Source of the DNA: Bacteroidota bacterium
GTDB lineage: Bacteria > Bacteroidota > Ignavibacteria > UBA10030 > UBA6906
Length of the DNA stretch: 64,000 nucleotides
Assembly (NCBI GenBank): GCA_030835135.1
Contig: JAUQWO010000075.1
Span: forward strand, 62,001-126,000
Direction of reading: 5' to 3'
The translations under genes and the position numbers were made by a program. The notes beneath the pieces are model-generated. The model made no database searches, was not told the DNA's origin, and worked only from the letters and a program-made list of their open reading frames with translations. Shown here in pieces: positions 20,254-63,908 of this stretch; the first letter of the stretch is position 1; the number at the start of each line of letters is the position of its first letter.

Positions 20254-21037
20254 AGGCCTCCATATCCACGATGGTGACGTCGCCGGCGAGGAATGTGTGA
20301 TCGCCGGTATGATTGGCAACAAGCAGGGAGCCGTCGGGGTTCACCCCTTTCACCCGGCCATGAAGCACTTCGCCCTGGTGCGAGACGGAGATGGTGCGGC
20401 CGATCACGGGGGCATACGTGAGCCATCGCTGGACGGTGTATGCGTAGCCGTCGGCGCTCTGGGCAAGGTATTCGTCCTCGAGACTCTTGAGCAGCGACTT
20501 GTACAGGCCGATCCGCTCCAGGGGGGTGTTCAGTTCGCGCGCGAGAGACGTCGCGCGCGCCGCGATGTCCGGAGGGAATTCCCGCTGGTTCACATTCAGT
20601 CCGATCCCCACCACCACGTGATCGACCCGCTCACCCGCGAACGAACCCTCCAGCAGGATACCCGCGAGTTTCTTCCCGCCGTACAGCAGATCGTTGGGCC
20701 ACTTGCAGAACACGCGGAGACCGGTGGACTCTTCAATGCCCCGGGCGATGCCGACAGCGATGAGCAGCGAGAGGAGTCCCATCCTGTCGGGGGGGATGGC
20801 TGGCCGCAGAATGAGGGAGAACGTCAGGTTCTCACCGGCAGCCGCCACCCAGGAACGGCCGAGACGGCCGCGTCCTGCCGTTTGCTCGTCGGCAATGACG
20901 ACCGTTCCCTCCTCTGCCCAGCACGCAGCCAGGGCGCGGGCACAGGAATTCGTGGAGTCGATGGTCTGAAACGTGTAGACCTTCCTCCCGAAGATCTCGG
21001 TGCGAAGACCGCCACGAAGTATGTCCGGTGAGATCAT
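20237..21037 (-). CDS. birA: Biotin-protein ligase (BirA catalytic domain only)
   Basis: Attaches biotin to carboxylase carrier proteins. Motifs TIDSTNSCARAL, GRGRLGRSW (biotin/ATP loop) and CKWPNDLLYGGKKLAGIL are intact. Starting at ATG 21037 (MISPDILRGG) gives 266 residues. The N-terminal helix-turn-helix of bifunctional BirA is absent, so this is a monofunctional ligase that cannot repress transcription as the E. coli protein does. It is divergent from dnaK across a 313-nt AT-rich gap, and coaX overlaps its 3' end. Confidence 0.94.
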   Translation of the reverse strand: MISPDILRGGLRTEIFGRKVYTFQTIDSTNSCARALAACWAEEGTVVIADEQTAGRGRLGRSWVAAAGENLTFSLILRPAIPPDRMGLLSLLIAVGIARGIEESTGLRVFCKWPNDLLYGGKKLAGILLEGSFAGERVDHVVVGIGLNVNQREFPPDIAARATSLARELNTPLERIGLYKSLLKSLEDEYLAQSADGYAYTVQRWLTYAPVIGRTISVSHQGEVLHGRVKGVNPDGSLLVANHTGDHTFLAGDVTIVDMEAYAARH

Positions 21038-21112
21038 TACGAGAGCAAGGTACAACGATGGGTGGAGCCACGAGAATGAGGGAACATACAAAACTACCCC
21101 CTGAGAAGCAAG

Positions 21113-21141
21113 AATATCAAAATGGCATGTGTGTGTGACAA
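21113..21141 (-). promoter_or_regulatory. Possible birA-coaX promoter
   Basis: On the minus strand, TTGTCA (21136-21141) and GATATT (21113-21118) are 17 bp apart, the spacing used by the other promoters in this window. The predicted leader before birA is about 70 nt. The -10 box is imperfect. Confidence 0.4.
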
Positions 21142-21283
21142 AATGACTGCTAGCCTGCCACAAGAGCACCAATATGAGTCAATGTGTCATTATGGCAGAT
21201 TCGGAGTTTCTTCGTTCTTCCATTCGCTGTTCTGTAATATATTGCAAAATAAGGATATTATGGAATTGGAAGATTGTGAACAT

Positions 21284-21300
21284 CTGGCACAGGGGTTGCG
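21284..21300 (+). promoter_or_regulatory. Sigma-54 (-24/-12) promoter upstream of dnaK
   Basis: CTGGCAC (21284-21290), AGGGG, then TTGCG (21296-21300) gives TGGCAC-N5-TTGC, a full match to the RpoN consensus with the invariant GG and GC 12 bp apart. The predicted start near 21311 gives a leader of about 40 nt to the dnaK ATG, which has AAGGAG at 21335-21340. The surrounding 313-nt gap (21038-21350) is AT-rich for this genome and has room for an activator site; I found no CIRCE (TTAGCACTC) element and no clear vegetative promoter facing dnaK. Confidence 0.8.
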
Positions 21301-21350
21301 ATACGTTAAGCATGTAGCAAATTGACATCAGACCAAGGAGAGATTTCATA

Positions 21351-23288
21351 ATGGGAAAGATCATCGGAATTGATCTGGGCACCACCAATTCGGTAGTAGC
21401 GGTGATGGAGGGGAACGATCCTGTCGTTATCGCCAATGCAGAAGGCGGCCGGACGACGCCTTCCATCGTGGGATTCGCCAAGAACGGGGAACGTCTCGTT
21501 GGCCAGGCTGCGAAGCGTCAGGCCGTGACGAACCCGCAGAATACCGTCTTCTCGATCAAGCGTTTCATGGGCCGCTTCCACGACGAGGTGAACGAGGAGA
21601 TGAAGCTCGTCCCCTACAAGGTCGTGAAGGGCGACAACAATACTGCGCGTGTCGAAGCAGGTGGGCGGGTCTACTCGCCGCCGGAGATCAGCGCCATGAT
21701 CCTCCAGAAAATGAAGCAGACCGCGGAGGACTATATCGGCCAGAAGGTCACCGAAGCCGTCATCACCGTCCCCGCGTACTTCAATGACGCACAGCGGCAG
21801 GCCACGAAAGAGGCCGGCGAGATCGCCGGACTGAACGTCCGCCGCATCATCAACGAACCCACGGCTGCGGCGTTGGCCTATGGCCTCGACAAGAAGAACA
21901 AGGACGTGAAGGTTGCGATCTATGACCTGGGCGGTGGCACGTTCGATATCTCCATCCTCGAACTGGGCGATGGCGTGTTCGAAGTGAAGTCCACCAACGG
22001 CGACACCCACCTCGGTGGCGACAACTTCGACCAGCGCATCGTGGACCACGTGGCCGATGAGTTCAAGAAGCAGGAAGGCATCGATCTCCGCAAGGACCCG
22101 ATGGCATTGCAGCGCCTGCGCGAAGGGGCCGAGAAGGCCAAGATGGAGCTTTCGCAGCTCATGCAGACCGAGATCAACCTGCCGTTCATCACCGCAACGG
22201 CCGAAGGGCCGAAGCACCTGAACATGAGCCTCAGCCGTGCGAAGTTCGAGCAGCTCGTGGATGATCTGATCCAGCGGACGCTCGGACCGACGGAGCGCGC
22301 GCTGCGCGACGCGAACCTCGCCCCGAAGGACATCGATGAGGTCATCCTCGTCGGCGGTATGACCCGCGTGCCGAAGGTACAGGAGGTCGTGAAGCAGATC
22401 TTCGGGCGTGAACCGCACAAGGGCGTGAACCCGGATGAGGTCGTGGCCGTCGGTGCGGCGATCCAGGGTGGCGTGCTCTCGGGCGACGTCACGGATGTGT
22501 TGCTGCTGGATGTGACCCCGCTCTCGTTGGGCATCGAGACCCTCGGGAACGTGATGACGAAGTTGATCGACGCGAACACCACGATCCCGACACGGAAGAG
22601 CGAAGTGTTCTCGACGGCCTCGGACAGTCAGCCGTCGGTGGAGATCAACGTGCTGCAGGGCGAACGGCCCATGGCGCGCGACAACCGGAGCCTCGGCAGT
22701 TTCCATCTGGACGGCATTCCGCCGGCACCGCGCGGCGTCCCGCAGATCGAAGTGACCTTCGACATCGATGCCAATGGCATCCTGCACGTTTCGGCGAAGG
22801 ACAAGGCGACGAACAAGGAGCAGTCCATCCGTATCACATCGTCGAGCGGCCTGAGCAAGGACGAGGTGGAGAAGATGAAGCGCGAGGCGCAAGAACACGC
22901 TGCCGATGACAAGAAAAAGCGGGAAGAGATCGATCTGAAGAACCAGGCCGACAACCTCTCCTTCCAGACGGAAAAGCAGCTGAAGGAGTTCGGCGAGAAG
23001 TTGAGCGCCGACGTGAAGGCGAAGATCGAGAAGGCGAACGAAGAGCTGAAGACGGCCGCCGGCACAGGGAATGCCGGTGCGATCAAGAGCGCCATGGATG
23101 CCCTGACGGCGGTCTGGAACGAGGCCTCGACGCAGATGTACCAGCAGGCCGGAGCCCAGGGCGCCGGTCCGCAGGGCGGTCCCCAGGCCGGTCCGCAGTC
23201 CGCACCCCCTCCGGGTGGCGGACAGCAGAAGGCCGATGAGAAGAAGGTGGAAGATGCGGACTTTGAGGTGATGGACGATAAGAAGTAG
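21351..23288 (+). CDS. dnaK: Chaperone DnaK (Hsp70)
   Basis: A 645-residue cytosolic ATP-driven chaperone. [10 protein letters not shown] at the N-terminus, [31 protein letters not shown] and [11 protein letters not shown] mark the ATPase domain. The substrate-binding domain starts around [14 protein letters not shown]. The C-terminal lid ends in a Gly/Pro/Gln-rich linker and the usual acidic [12 protein letters not shown] tail. It stands alone: no grpE or dnaJ is next to it, unlike many dnaK operons. It is preceded by a sigma-54-type promoter and followed by an intrinsic terminator. Confidence 0.98.
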
Positions 23289-23390: not shown

Positions 23391-23415
23391 AAAGGCGAGG
23401 CGACCCCTCGCCTTT
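23391..23415 (+). terminator. Terminator of dnaK
   Basis: AAAGGCGAGG (23391-23400) and CCTCGCCTTT (23406-23415) form a perfect 10-bp stem with a CGACC loop, followed by GCTGTCCT. It ends 8 nt before the next start codon. Confidence 0.75.
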
Positions 23416-23423
23416 GCTGTCCT

Positions 23424-23693
23424 ATGGAACTGGTGATCATTCTGTTCAGCGTGGGGCTCGTGGTGCTGGCCGTGTGGATGGCTGCGAGCGGGAAATTCTC
23501 CGGCGGCGGCTCTTCGCCGATGTCCATCACCGCGATGCACGACATGCTGCCGCGCGACAAACAGGAAGCGATGGAAGTGATCATCGACGAGAAGGCGGGA
23601 AAGAAGTGGGAAGAGCAGGAGTCCGGGGAAGGGGATACGGACGCGAACAGCGAAGAAGGAAACGGAAAGAGAAGAAGGAAACGGAACGGGTGA
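23424..23693 (+). CDS. Small single-span membrane protein, 89 aa
   Basis: I do not recognise the family. The first 20 residues are a hydrophobic helix (LVIILFSVGLVVLAVWMA), followed by a Gly/Ser linker and a highly charged cytosolic-type tail rich in Glu, Lys and Arg (ending KRRRKRNG). The start codon lies only 8 nt after the dnaK terminator hairpin and has no ribosome-binding site, so the hairpin may affect its expression. clpB starts 73 nt downstream. Its position between dnaK and clpB hints at a link to proteostasis, but that is inference. Confidence 0.5.
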   Translation: MELVIILFSVGLVVLAVWMAASGKFSGGGSSPMSITAMHDMLPRDKQEAMEVIIDEKAGKKWEEQESGEGDTDANSEEGNGKRRRKRNG

Positions 23694-52079: not shown

Positions 52080-53465
52080 ATGGCAAAGAAGTACAACCTA
52101 CTTGTTGTTGACGATGAGGTCTCCCTCCGTACCCTTCTGGAAAGTGAGCTTTCGGAAGCGGAGGAATTCGCCGTCGATTGCGCGGCGGACGGCGGCGAGG
52201 CCATCAACCGTATCCAGGGCAAGATCTACGATGTCATCCTCCTCGATGTCCGGATGCCGCGGGTCTCGGGCATCGAGGTCCTGAAGTTCGTTCAGGAGTA
52301 TTCTCCCTCCACCCAGGTCATTATCCTCACCAACTACGCGGACATCAAGACCGCGATCCAGACGATCAAACTCGGTGCCTATGACTTCCTCGCGAAGCCG
52401 TATGATATCGAGGAGATCTTCAACACCATCCACCGGGCGCTCGAGCGCCGCGCGCTGTCGATCGACAACAAGCTCATGCGCAGCGAGCTCACCCGCAAGG
52501 CGGGCGCAAATGAGCTCATCGGCCAGAGCCCGGCATTCCTGAAACTCGTCGAGAGTGCGACACGTTTCGCCGAAAGCGAATCGTTCGTCCTTATTCAGGG
52601 CGCGAGCGGCACGGGCAAGGAGCTCATCGCCGGGCTCATCCACCGCCGCAGCACCCGGAACAACCGTCCGTTCGTCGCCGTCAACTGCGCGTCGATCCCG
52701 GATGCGCTGCTCGAGAGCGAACTCTTCGGACACGAGAAGGGCGCATTCACGAATGCCTTCCAGACCAAACAGGGGCTTGTGGAGGTTGCGAACGGCGGGA
52801 CGCTCTTCCTCGATGAGGTCGGCGATATCAGTCCGGCCATCCAGCCCAAGTTGCTCCGGTTCCTGGAAACGGGAGAATTCCGGCGCGTCGGCGGCACGAA
52901 CCTGCTCACCGTCGATGTGCGCGTGGTGAGCGCCTCCAACAAGGACCTGCGGGACGAGGTGACTGCCGGGCGGTTCCGTGAGGACCTGCTGTACCGGCTC
53001 AACGTGGTCTCCCTCCGTATGCCATCGCTGCGCGACAGGCCGGAGGACATCCCGGTCCTGGCGTCGTACTTCCTCGAACGGAAGGCGAAGTCCAAGAACG
53101 TGAAACGCCTGTCACCGGGTGCCCTCGAATTGTTGCAGATGCATACCTGGCCCGGGAATGTGCGCGAACTCGAACACGTGATCGAGGGCGCGATCCTGTT
53201 GTCGTCCGGCGATGTGATCGAGGAACATGATCTGGCGATGTACTTTCAGCGTGGCGACCGGCCGTCCGCCCCCCCGCCGGCGGCCTCCGCTCAGGCCATA
53301 CCCCCGGCACAGGCCGTGACGCTGGATGACCTCGAACGGCAGCACATCGAGAACACCCTCAAGGCCTTCAAGAACAACCGCGCACGCACGGCGGAGGCCC
53401 TTGGCATCAGCAAGAAGACCCTGTATCTGAAGCTCAAACGCTACGGGATGGGTGAGCAGGGGTAG
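52080..53465 (+). CDS. NtrC-family response regulator with GAFTNA loop
   Basis: A 461-residue activator: receiver domain (Asp56), AAA+ domain with Walker A GASGTGKE (174-181) and Walker B GGTLFLDE (239-246), and a Fis-type helix-turn-helix at the C-terminus (NRARTAEALGISKKTLYLKLKR). The sigma-54 contact loop reads GAFTNA (221-226) instead of GAFTGA. Such loops occur in some family members and may weaken or alter contact with sigma-54. The protein sits 44 nt after the CheY-like gene. Target genes are unknown; dnaK is one candidate because of its -24/-12 promoter. Confidence 0.93.
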   Translation: MAKKYNLLVVDDEVSLRTLLESELSEAEEFAVDCAADGGEAINRIQGKIYDVILLDVRMPRVSGIEVLKFVQEYSPSTQVIILTNYADIKTAIQTIKLGAYDFLAKPYDIEEIFNTIHRALERRALSIDNKLMRSELTRKAGANELIGQSPAFLKLVESATRFAESESFVLIQGASGTGKELIAGLIHRRSTRNNRPFVAVNCASIPDALLESELFGHEKGAFTNAFQTKQGLVEVANGGTLFLDEVGDISPAIQPKLLRFLETGEFRRVGGTNLLTVDVRVVSASNKDLRDEVTAGRFREDLLYRLNVVSLRMPSLRDRPEDIPVLASYFLERKAKSKNVKRLSPGALELLQMHTWPGNVRELEHVIEGAILLSSGDVIEEHDLAMYFQRGDRPSAPPPAASAQAIPPAQAVTLDDLERQHIENTLKAFKNNRARTAEALGISKKTLYLKLKRYGMGEQG

Positions 53466-61789: not shown

Positions 61790-62574
61790 ACCATGCATGG
61801 CGGTCGTTGATCGCGCGTGTCCGCCGGTGGGGGGGCCTGCTCGCGATGGTGGCGGCGCTGAACCCCGGTGCCTTCGCTCAGGTGGATAGTACGGCGCTCC
61901 CTTCAACGGCCTGTCAGGGTGTGGAGCCCGTGGAGGATATCCATCCGTTGCAGGAGGCCATTGCCATGTTCCTCCTGCCCAAGATCCTGCAGGATGCCGT
62001 GGCGCTGAAAGAATATGTGGTGAGTGATGAATACCGGGAGATACGCCGCGCGCGCGGCGATGTGATCGCGGTGGATGTGCTCTTCCGCCGCGCACTCCGG
62101 ATGTCGTGGAACAATCCGTACGCGACACTCACGATCGTCACGCTCGCGGTGCTGGATCACCACAGGTTCGGCATGCGGATCCCGTTCCTCGGTCCGCTGC
62201 TCTGGTTCCCGCTCACGTCGGAGTTTCCCGAGGAATTCGCCCGGCGGCATGCAGCGCTGCCGCTGCGCCTGTATCCCGACACCCCGGTGTGGGGTGACCG
62301 CGACAAGCTCCAGCATTTTTTCGGGGCGGCACTGCTTGCCGTGCTGACCGGCTCCCAGGCGACCGTGGAGCGTGTGGGATCGTTCATCGAGTGGGGCGAG
62401 GACCGGTTCATCGTGGAGGGGGCGCTGGAGGCGCGCGATATGGAAGCGAACAGACGGGGCGGCATGTTCGGTCTGGCGTTCCTGCGCGACCGCACCGTGC
62501 TCCCGTCCGCATCCATGGGGACGGCGTTGTCCGTTCCGCTCATCGATACCGTGCAGGTGCACGAGGAAGAGTGA
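61786..62574 (+). CDS. Exported hypothetical protein, 262 aa
   Basis: I do not recognise the family with certainty. GTG 61786 overlaps the meaB stop. The N-terminus has a signal peptide (basic region, then LLAMVAALNPGAFA, cleavage before QVDS). The mature part carries a hydrophobic stretch (PFLGPLLWFPL) and a segment DKLQHFFGAALLAVLTGS, which resembles the D-K-x-x-H-F-x-G pattern of VanZ- or DUF2279-like membrane proteins. Two in-frame blocks (VERVGSFIEWGEDRF, GGMFGLAFL) look conserved. Probably envelope-associated. Followed after 2 nt by an NtrC-type regulator. Confidence 0.6.
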   Translation: MNHAWRSLIARVRRWGGLLAMVAALNPGAFAQVDSTALPSTACQGVEPVEDIHPLQEAIAMFLLPKILQDAVALKEYVVSDEYREIRRARGDVIAVDVLFRRALRMSWNNPYATLTIVTLAVLDHHRFGMRIPFLGPLLWFPLTSEFPEEFARRHAALPLRLYPDTPVWGDRDKLQHFFGAALLAVLTGSQATVERVGSFIEWGEDRFIVEGALEARDMEANRRGGMFGLAFLRDRTVLPSASMGTALSVPLIDTVQVHEEE

Positions 62575-62576
62575 CC

Positions 62577-63908
62577 ATGAAGACCGTACTGATCGTTGAC
62601 GATGAAGCGACCATCCGCGAGACCATCCGGATGACGCTCGAGTATGAGAAGTTCGCAGTGGCGGAAGCCGCCGATGGGCCGGCGGCCCTCGCGCGCGTCG
62701 CGGCGGGCGGCATCGACCTGGTCTTTCTGGACATCAAGATGCCGGGCATCGACGGGATGCGTGTCCTCGATACCCTGCGGTCGGAATACCCCTCGCTGCC
62801 GGTGATCATGATCTCGGGGCACGCGACGGTCGATACCGCGGTGGAGGCGTTGCGGTTGGGCGTCTTTGATTTCCTCACCAAACCTCTGGACCGCGACCAC
62901 CTGATCATGGTGGCTCGCAACGCCGTCGAGGTGAAGCGTCTGCGGGAGCAGGTCGAAGGCAAGTACCGTATCATCGGCGAGACGCAGGTGATGAAGGACA
63001 TGCTTGCGCTCATCGAGCGCGTGGCCCCCACCGAGGCCCGCGTGTTCATCGCCGGCGAGAACGGGTCAGGGAAAGAGCTCGTGGCCCGTGCGTTGCACCG
63101 GCTCAGCAAGCGGTCGGGACAGGCGCTGATCGAGGTCAACTGTGCGGCGATCCCGAATGAGCTCATCGAATCGGAACTGTTCGGGCACGAGAAGGGCGCA
63201 TTCACCGGTGCCACGGGTACCCGGATCGGGAAATTCGAACTTGCGGATGGCGGCACGATCTTTCTGGATGAGATCGGCGACATGAGTCTCACCGCGCAGG
63301 CCAAGGTGCTGCGTGCGCTGGAGGAAGGGCACATCGAGCGCGTCGGCGGGTCACGCCAGATCAAGGTCGATGTGCGTGTCTTCGCCGCGACGAACAAGAA
63401 TCTGCCGGAGGCCGTGAAGGGCGGTGCATTCCGCGAGGACCTCTATCACCGTCTGAACGTGATCCCGATCCGCGTCCCGGCGCTGCGCGAACGCCGCGAG
63501 GATATCCCGCTGTTGGCCGCGTCCTTTGCCGCCGATGTCTGTGCACAGAACGGGATGGCGCCGAAGCGCTTCACCGATGATGTGCTCCGGACCCTGCAGG
63601 GCATGCCCTGGGGCGGCAATGTGCGGGAGCTCAGGAACACGGTGGAGCGCCTGGTGATCATGACGCCGGGCGATGAGATCGCGCGGATCGAAGTCTTCCA
63701 GGAAGCACCCCGGGCCGGGGGCGTCGTGGAGGACCTGCTGGCGCAGAACCTGACGTTCCAGGACTTCAAGGATCGGGCCGAGGCGGCCTTCATCAAGAAG
63801 CAGCTGGAAGTGCACGACTGGAATGTGAGCAAGACGGCGGATGCGCTGGAGATCCAGCGGAGTCATTTATACAACAAGATGAAGAAGTTCGGCCTGGAGC
63901 GGGAGTAG
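62577..63908 (+). CDS. NtrC-family response regulator with canonical GAFTGA
   Basis: A 443-residue activator. Receiver domain with Asp52 (VFLDIKMPG), AAA+ domain with Walker A GENGSGKE (160-167), GAFTGA loop (207-212) and GGTIFLDE Walker B, and a Fis-type helix-turn-helix (WNVSKTADALEIQRSHLYNKMKKF). With canonical GAFTGA it should activate sigma-54 promoters. ATG 62577 follows the previous stop by 2 nt. No histidine kinase is adjacent. Its stop lies 1 nt from that of the convergent methyltransferase. Confidence 0.95.
   Translation: MKTVLIVDDEATIRETIRMTLEYEKFAVAEAADGPAALARVAAGGIDLVFLDIKMPGIDGMRVLDTLRSEYPSLPVIMISGHATVDTAVEALRLGVFDFLTKPLDRDHLIMVARNAVEVKRLREQVEGKYRIIGETQVMKDMLALIERVAPTEARVFIAGENGSGKELVARALHRLSKRSGQALIEVNCAAIPNELIESELFGHEKGAFTGATGTRIGKFELADGGTIFLDEIGDMSLTAQAKVLRALEEGHIERVGGSRQIKVDVRVFAATNKNLPEAVKGGAFREDLYHRLNVIPIRVPALRERREDIPLLAASFAADVCAQNGMAPKRFTDDVLRTLQGMPWGGNVRELRNTVERLVIMTPGDEIARIEVFQEAPRAGGVVEDLLAQNLTFQDFKDRAEAAFIKKQLEVHDWNVSKTADALEIQRSHLYNKMKKFGLERE

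Follow-up and report, generated by a model that had tools for sequence, protein, structure and literature searches.

Textbook control of bacterial heat-shock genes runs through sigma-32 or through repressors such as HrcA, and the question raised by the locus described here is what switches on its dnaK gene. The locus lies in a 64-kb stretch of DNA (the window; G000:C45:62001-126000), which is part of a 4.9-Mb assembly. From a comparison with its counterparts in other genomes, we conclude that dnaK is probably switched on by sigma-54 (RpoN) together with a distant enhancer, and not by the textbook heat-shock switches. The same arrangement occurs in related bacteria and therefore looks old and general for chaperone control.

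The candidate -24/-12 sigma-54 promoter box, TGGCACAGGGGTTGCG, occupies positions 21285-21300 of the + strand, 51 nt 5' of dnaK, and was recognized by scanning the window and by its conservation before dnaK or at the head of hsp20-dnaK operons. It consists of TGGCAC, the spacer AGGGG and TTGCG, preceded by a C at 21284. The GG of the -24 element (21286-21287) and the GC of the -12 element (21298-21299) are 12 positions apart, with 10 bases between them, as in a sigma-54 promoter. An earlier sequence-only reading had described a full match to the RpoN consensus about 50 nt from the dnaK start; its sequence, coordinates, GG/GC spacing and distance all hold, whereas the match to TGGCAC-N5-TTGCW is 10 of 11 positions, the final base being G instead of A or T. 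With the C of the GC counted as -12, we infer a transcription start at 21311 (+). A Shine-Dalgarno motif, AAGGAG, was read from the sequence at 21335-21340 (+), ahead of the ATG at 21351 of dnaK (21351-23288, +), which encodes a 645-aa protein matching PF00012 (Hsp70; E 1.1e-272). Within the window, the strict pattern TGGCAY-N5-TTG occurs at this one site in 64 kb, both strands being scanned. When one mismatch to the longer consensus was allowed, three sites were found where 1.46 would be expected, and at least three also turned up in 17 of 100 shuffled sequences. A lone match in a window of this size is thus weak evidence and not significant against chance, and this count is what speaks for the box being a fortuitous match to the consensus.

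Other control elements were also sought in front of dnaK. CIRCE (TTAGCACTC-N9-GAGTGCTAA) is absent from positions 20701-21386, where the best site has 7 mismatches, and no sigma-32 site (CTTGAA-N12-17-CCCCATNT) with at least 10 matches was found in 20901-21350; control of dnaK by CIRCE or sigma-32 was ruled out because no such sites lie upstream. Just one hexamer pair is strong, TTGACA-N19-CATAAT at 21322, and it overlaps the dnaK start codon; the scanner returned no sigma-70-like site facing dnaK on the + strand. The sequence-only reading, which had noted neither a CIRCE element nor a good vegetative promoter facing dnaK, was correct on both counts.

The sigma-54 promoter may nevertheless carry only part of dnaK transcription, or answer a signal other than heat, with a vegetative promoter supplying the basal level. 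DnaK is needed at all times, which counts towards such a promoter, and weak sigma-70-like pairs with 8 of 12 matches do precede dnaK. A precedent exists in Chlamydia, where, according to the available part of the report, the hrcA-grpE-dnaK operon is under tandem sigma-66/sigma-54 promoters (PMC8762339). In both cases, a dnaK operon is transcribed from a sigma-54 promoter; the chlamydial one, however, stands beside a sigma-66 promoter under HrcA, whereas here CIRCE is lacking at dnaK and no promoter element other than the box is conserved. Besides the negative scanner result, 94 promoters showed no other conserved element at a constant distance from the box, and their flanks carry little information (60 of the promoters analysed were chosen for the box, so that the box columns in the flank analysis are fixed by selection). 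We consider a shared promoter arrangement possible but rather doubtful, and favor the box as the promoter of dnaK.

The region upstream of dnaK could be read in 56 of 60 relatives within the order, G009, G014, G033 and G056 having no usable dnaK N-terminus; the 80 named loci were reduced to 63 at this level by removal of duplicates and short ones. The strict box lies within 300 nt 5' of dnaK in 38 of the 41 relatives belonging to four families, namely the own family f1 (17/19), f3 (9/9), f4 (2/2) and f5 (10/11). Next to dnaK, it was found in 0/5 genomes of f2 and 0/10 of f6. When all 56 sequences were shuffled, the mean was 0.15 boxes and the maximum 2, and neither the minus strand nor the reversed pattern yielded a single one in these 56. 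Box density was 38 in the 8.2 kb before dnaK, as against a background of 2 in 212 kb of other loci, both strands being counted. The box count is subject to selection for TTG, and we took the number of TGGCAY sites as a selection-free statistic, the set of 60 promoters used below having been picked for box presence. TGGCAY was present in 41/41 sequences of f1, f3, f4 and f5, and of its 50 sites, 38 have TTG at +11. The upstream regions of these relatives are strongly divergent outside the box. Comparison across relatives thus refutes a chance match, to which we attach a negligible probability. The rigid spacing and the conservation also support the proposal of the sequence-only reading that dnaK has a sigma-54 promoter.

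That reading had further staked its case on the GG/GC boxes being kept in close relatives. This largely holds: in the own family, the -24 GG and TTG are retained in 17/19 genomes, whereas only 9/19 retain the C at -12. The base following TTG is C in 18, T in 10, G in 6 and A in 4 of the 38 promoters of the order, and A in 22, T in 10 and C in 2 of the phylum set. Away from the own order, with its TTGC, the -12 element thus shifts towards TTGA or TTGT in the rest of the phylum, a change that may reflect a lineage-specific preference of RpoN. Among individual genomes, G012 and G017 (L008, L006) have a variant with a 4-base spacer, TGGCAC-AACG-TTGG, expected to be a poor sigma-54 site, and the dnaK box of G042 has ATG in place of TTG.

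A free -12 C, together with the preference of the wider phylum for TTGA/TTGT, is also what might be seen if the 16-bp box were the operator of another regulator, placed over or near a vegetative promoter. Against this, the box is asymmetric, has the -24/-12 spacing and faces the gene in every case; its distance to the start codon is mostly 60-110 nt, and an enhancer-like repeat stands at variable distance upstream of it. In addition, rpoN was matched in 50/50 more distant genomes as well as in 55/60 relatives, the five relatives without a match being mostly incomplete assemblies; a joint loss of rpoN and box had no occasion to appear among the 50 distant genomes, none of which is rpoN-free. 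The genome under study has a single rpoN with an intact RpoN box (ARRTVAKYRE). An operator is therefore a quite improbable reading of the box, and we continue to treat it as a sigma-54 promoter.

The two families without a box next to dnaK carry it elsewhere. In f2 and f6, between one and three hsp20 genes precede dnaK; among the 14 readable genomes, 13 have the strict box about 50-75 nt 5' of the first of these genes (of the 15 tallied, G030 has one mismatch and the contig of G049 is cut off). To extend the comparison to the phylum, 128 genomes were sampled, of which 7 from the own order were set aside; of the remaining 121, G127 gave no match and G174, G200 and G222 had a broken dnaK, leaving 117. 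Outside the order, the strict box is at the dnaK operon head in 87 of these 117 genomes, within 200 nt of dnaK in 34 and only at the head, nearly always before hsp20, in 53. It is found only at the operon head in f25 (15/15) and f19 (25/26), and directly before dnaK in f23 (11/11); in G206 of f19, the box lies within 200 nt of dnaK and no hsp20 end is found just before dnaK. Heads with hsp20 have the box in 52/59 cases, whereas the minus strand had none and shuffles gave 0.1. G189, in which the box is 180 nt before dnaK and hsp20 was not found by motif search, was counted as head-only. The strict box is lacking in 30/117 genomes, among them every genome of f9 (6) and of f16 (4).

Heads were also analyzed in 76 of the 80 named loci (four were short, and some overlap with the sampled genomes). 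Here, 45 of the 76 have the box, 27 at dnaK and 18 before hsp20, and in 31 the strict box was not found; those named genomes that were tested for rpoN do have it, and the box can therefore be missing despite rpoN. Box-bearing loci include MAGs titled KSB1 (L151, L162) and Calditrichota/Caldithrix (L147, L166). As far as sequence comparison can show, the box keeps to the head of the operon, which is again at odds with a chance match. The sequence-only reading had considered sigma-54 control of dnaK unusual in this lineage and not the rule; on the present counts it is the rule within the order and frequent across the phylum, and sigma-54 promoters at heat-shock COGs had already been predicted for Bacteroidota (PMC12316311).

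Sigma-54 promoters are served by upstream activating sequences at variable distance, and by sequence such an element is present here. The window contains an enhancer-like inverted repeat, GTGTCATTATGGCAG, at 21184-21198, whose core TGTCA-N3-TGGCA (21185-21197) is the only exact TGNCA-N3-TGNCA in the 64 kb and lies 100 nt 5' of the box. The repeat scan gave a second, weaker copy with one core mismatch, GTGACAAAATGACTG, at 21135-21149, about 49 bp from the first. The window's TGTCATTATGGCAG was found unchanged before dnaK of the KSB1 MAG L162. We compared 60 box promoters, comprising 38 of dnaK, 13 hsp20-dnaK heads and 9 hsp20 heads, the last being the strict-box cases among 13 genomes with hsp20 (G023 has TGGTAC; G007, G012 and G013 were left out, their heads being unfixed). 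In G026 and G040, the hsp20 motif missed the gene, although an Hsp20-like C-terminus is readable. Within 220 nt upstream, the exact repeat occurred at 36 sites in 32/60 promoters, as compared with 0.40 in shuffles, and with one mismatch in 57/60, as compared with about 6.7; the same half-sites at other spacings (0 to 15) gave 1 to 13 sites. The repeat begins 67-164 nt before the box and is often paired, with copies about 40-50 bp apart; pairs about 49-52 bp apart were also seen in G001, G002, G016, G008 and G038. In the phylum, 28/103 sequences contain it (0.75 in shuffles), 20 of them together with the box. It is weak in the f19 and f25 heads, and poor in G057 (2 mismatches) and G042.

An enhancer calls for an AAA+ enhancer-binding protein, and the genome has 26 matches to PF00158, one of which is a weak match to ClpB. 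Two of these proteins are encoded in the window (52080-53465 and 62391-63908, both +), in agreement with the two sigma-54-type activators listed by the sequence-only reading; both are NtrC-type response regulators with receiver, AAA+ and Fis HTH domains. Their proximity speaks for one of them driving dnaK, yet nothing ties these receiver-domain proteins to the gene. Two streamlined relatives also speak against them: G042 and G057 (1.7 Mb; L072, L071) keep rpoN and the dnaK box, which is strict in G057 and deviates at one position in G042, and each has only one true activator, a protein of 375-377 aa encoded between miaB-SPOR and lptE. Activation of dnaK by one of the window proteins is accordingly highly unlikely. 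The miaB-lptE protein is our candidate because, by elimination, it is the sole true activator in G042 and G057, and in these two genomes rpoN is possibly kept mainly for chaperone control.

In the genome under study, the miaB-lptE protein has 387 aa, with an AAA+ domain (18-184) bearing GSFTGA as its GAFTGA loop, a lid (190-268) and a Fis HTH (340-381), and lacks a sensor domain. Full-length orthologues are present in most of the 60 relatives and were not seen in G002, G004, G009 and G040; a linker with an EReLiyRAL motif between AAA+ and HTH is conserved (26 of 30 fetched orthologues aligned). PspF-type proteins are sensor-less enhancer-binding proteins, and the enhancer core of NorR-type proteins is GTCA-N3-TGAC. 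The candidate resembles PspF in having AAA+ and Fis HTH domains with no N-terminal sensor, and the TGNCA-N3-TGNCA repeat resembles the NorR core. It differs from both in its gene position at miaB-lptE and its conserved linker, and scores below both NCBIfam cut-offs (PspF, 288.4 against 443.55 bits; NorR, 338 against 476 bits), which places it outside the PspF family as defined there. Neither box nor enhancer was found near its gene in the 8-kb stretch read. In G004, which is 98% complete, orthologue and enhancer are both missing, a double absence that fits the assignment, whereas G057 and G042, which keep the activator yet have poor enhancers, do not help it. On balance, this sensor-less AAA+/Fis protein is the favored activator of dnaK, an assignment for which we see roughly even prospects.

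Outside the window, the same genome has a triple hsp20 operon (L333) with a box, TGGCACGCCGATTGAA, 76 nt before the ATG, and repeats further upstream (TGACA-ATA-TGCCA / TGCCA-TAA-TGAC). The sharing of promoter type and enhancer suggests that dnaK and hsp20 form one regulon. Genome-wide, TGGCAYN5TTGCW has 17 sites, some of them before genes, with no further clear heat-shock gene among them. HrcA/CIRCE and sigma-32 are likewise systems of chaperone control, but here CIRCE stands before groES and neither type of site before dnaK. The genome's only GCACTC-N9-GAGTGC lies 84 nt before groES, over a TTGACT/TATCTT promoter and with no sigma-54 box, and groESL would thus retain a vegetative-type promoter under HrcA/CIRCE.

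HrcA itself was found in 50/60 relatives and is missing from 9/10 genomes of f3. In three of these HrcA-less genomes (G041, G044, G037; L261, L271, L273), a groES copy has a TGGCAC-N5-TTG box, as if sigma-54 control had replaced HrcA/CIRCE at groES. A takeover of groES by sigma-54 wherever HrcA was lost was rejected, as the box is found in only 3 of the 8 HrcA-less f3 genomes read; it is absent in G022, G032, G047, G053 and G056, and G050 has no good groES match.

Taken together, the data make it very probable that the box is a working sigma-54 promoter of dnaK, part of an enhancer-dependent dnaK/hsp20 chaperone regulon. In the proposed mechanism, sigma-54 RNA polymerase would sit at 21285-21300 as an inactive closed complex, and a hexameric AAA+ enhancer-binding protein would bind the two copies of the inverted repeat, some 100 and 150 bp further upstream. 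The bound activator would loop over and open the promoter at the expense of ATP, with transcription starting near 21311, and DnaK would be produced when needed, which is most likely when protein folding is under stress. From the targets alone, dnaK and hsp20, we infer that the signal is heat or misfolding. As a guess, a sensor-less activator might sense stress via a partner such as free chaperone. If dnaK and hsp20 in this phylum do depend on sigma-54, an enhancer-binding protein must spend ATP to start the response, a logic unlike that of the textbook systems; a promoter that is silent unless activated would show little leak, and the misfolding sensor would become a concrete protein to test.

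The basic sigma-54 claim is already in print for sister classes. An in-silico survey (Carrera-Reyna et al. 2025; PMC12316311) reports, in its available portion, that sigma-54 promoters are enriched at heat-shock groups in Bacteroidota and Planctomycetota, the enriched groups being DnaK, IbpA/Hsp20, GroES/GroEL, GrpE and DnaJ in Flavobacteriia, Bacteroidia and Cytophagia; it calls GrpE/GroES sigma-54-dependent, citing a Blattabacterium genome paper. That portion contains no enhancer, activator or operon-head analysis, no HrcA/CIRCE split and no mention of Ignavibacteria or Calditrichota. Our literature search found no paper on sigma-54 in Ignavibacteria, the nearest being this survey and the Chlamydia papers. 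The enhancer, the operon-head rule and the candidate activator appear to be new, for the enhancer and activator on the basis of literature searches alone.

More tentatively, and with slightly less than even confidence, we suggest that dnaK/hsp20 control in the phylum and its neighbors (Ignavibacteria, KSB1 and Calditrichota MAGs) was ancestrally exerted by a circuit of CTGMCA-N3-TGKCAG enhancer, box and a single dedicated activator without sensor. This circuit would stay at the operon head despite gene rearrangement, spread to groES in some HrcA-less genomes, and explain rpoN in streamlined members. Flavobacterial insect symbionts retain rpoN, which the Walczuchella genome paper, in the part available, calls unusual (PMC3971599), and the same circuit might explain the retention of rpoN in Blattabacterium, Walczuchella and Uzinura. 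Sigma-54 dependence of dnaK and hsp20 in the phylum, if true, would also offer a testable reason for rpoN in reduced genomes and a consensus to seek in cultured Bacteroidota. Downstream of dnaK, a small ORF of 89 aa without a Pfam match (23424-23693, +) is located between dnaK and clpB, and 5' of it a GC-rich hairpin-like stretch is visible by eye at about 23392-23415.
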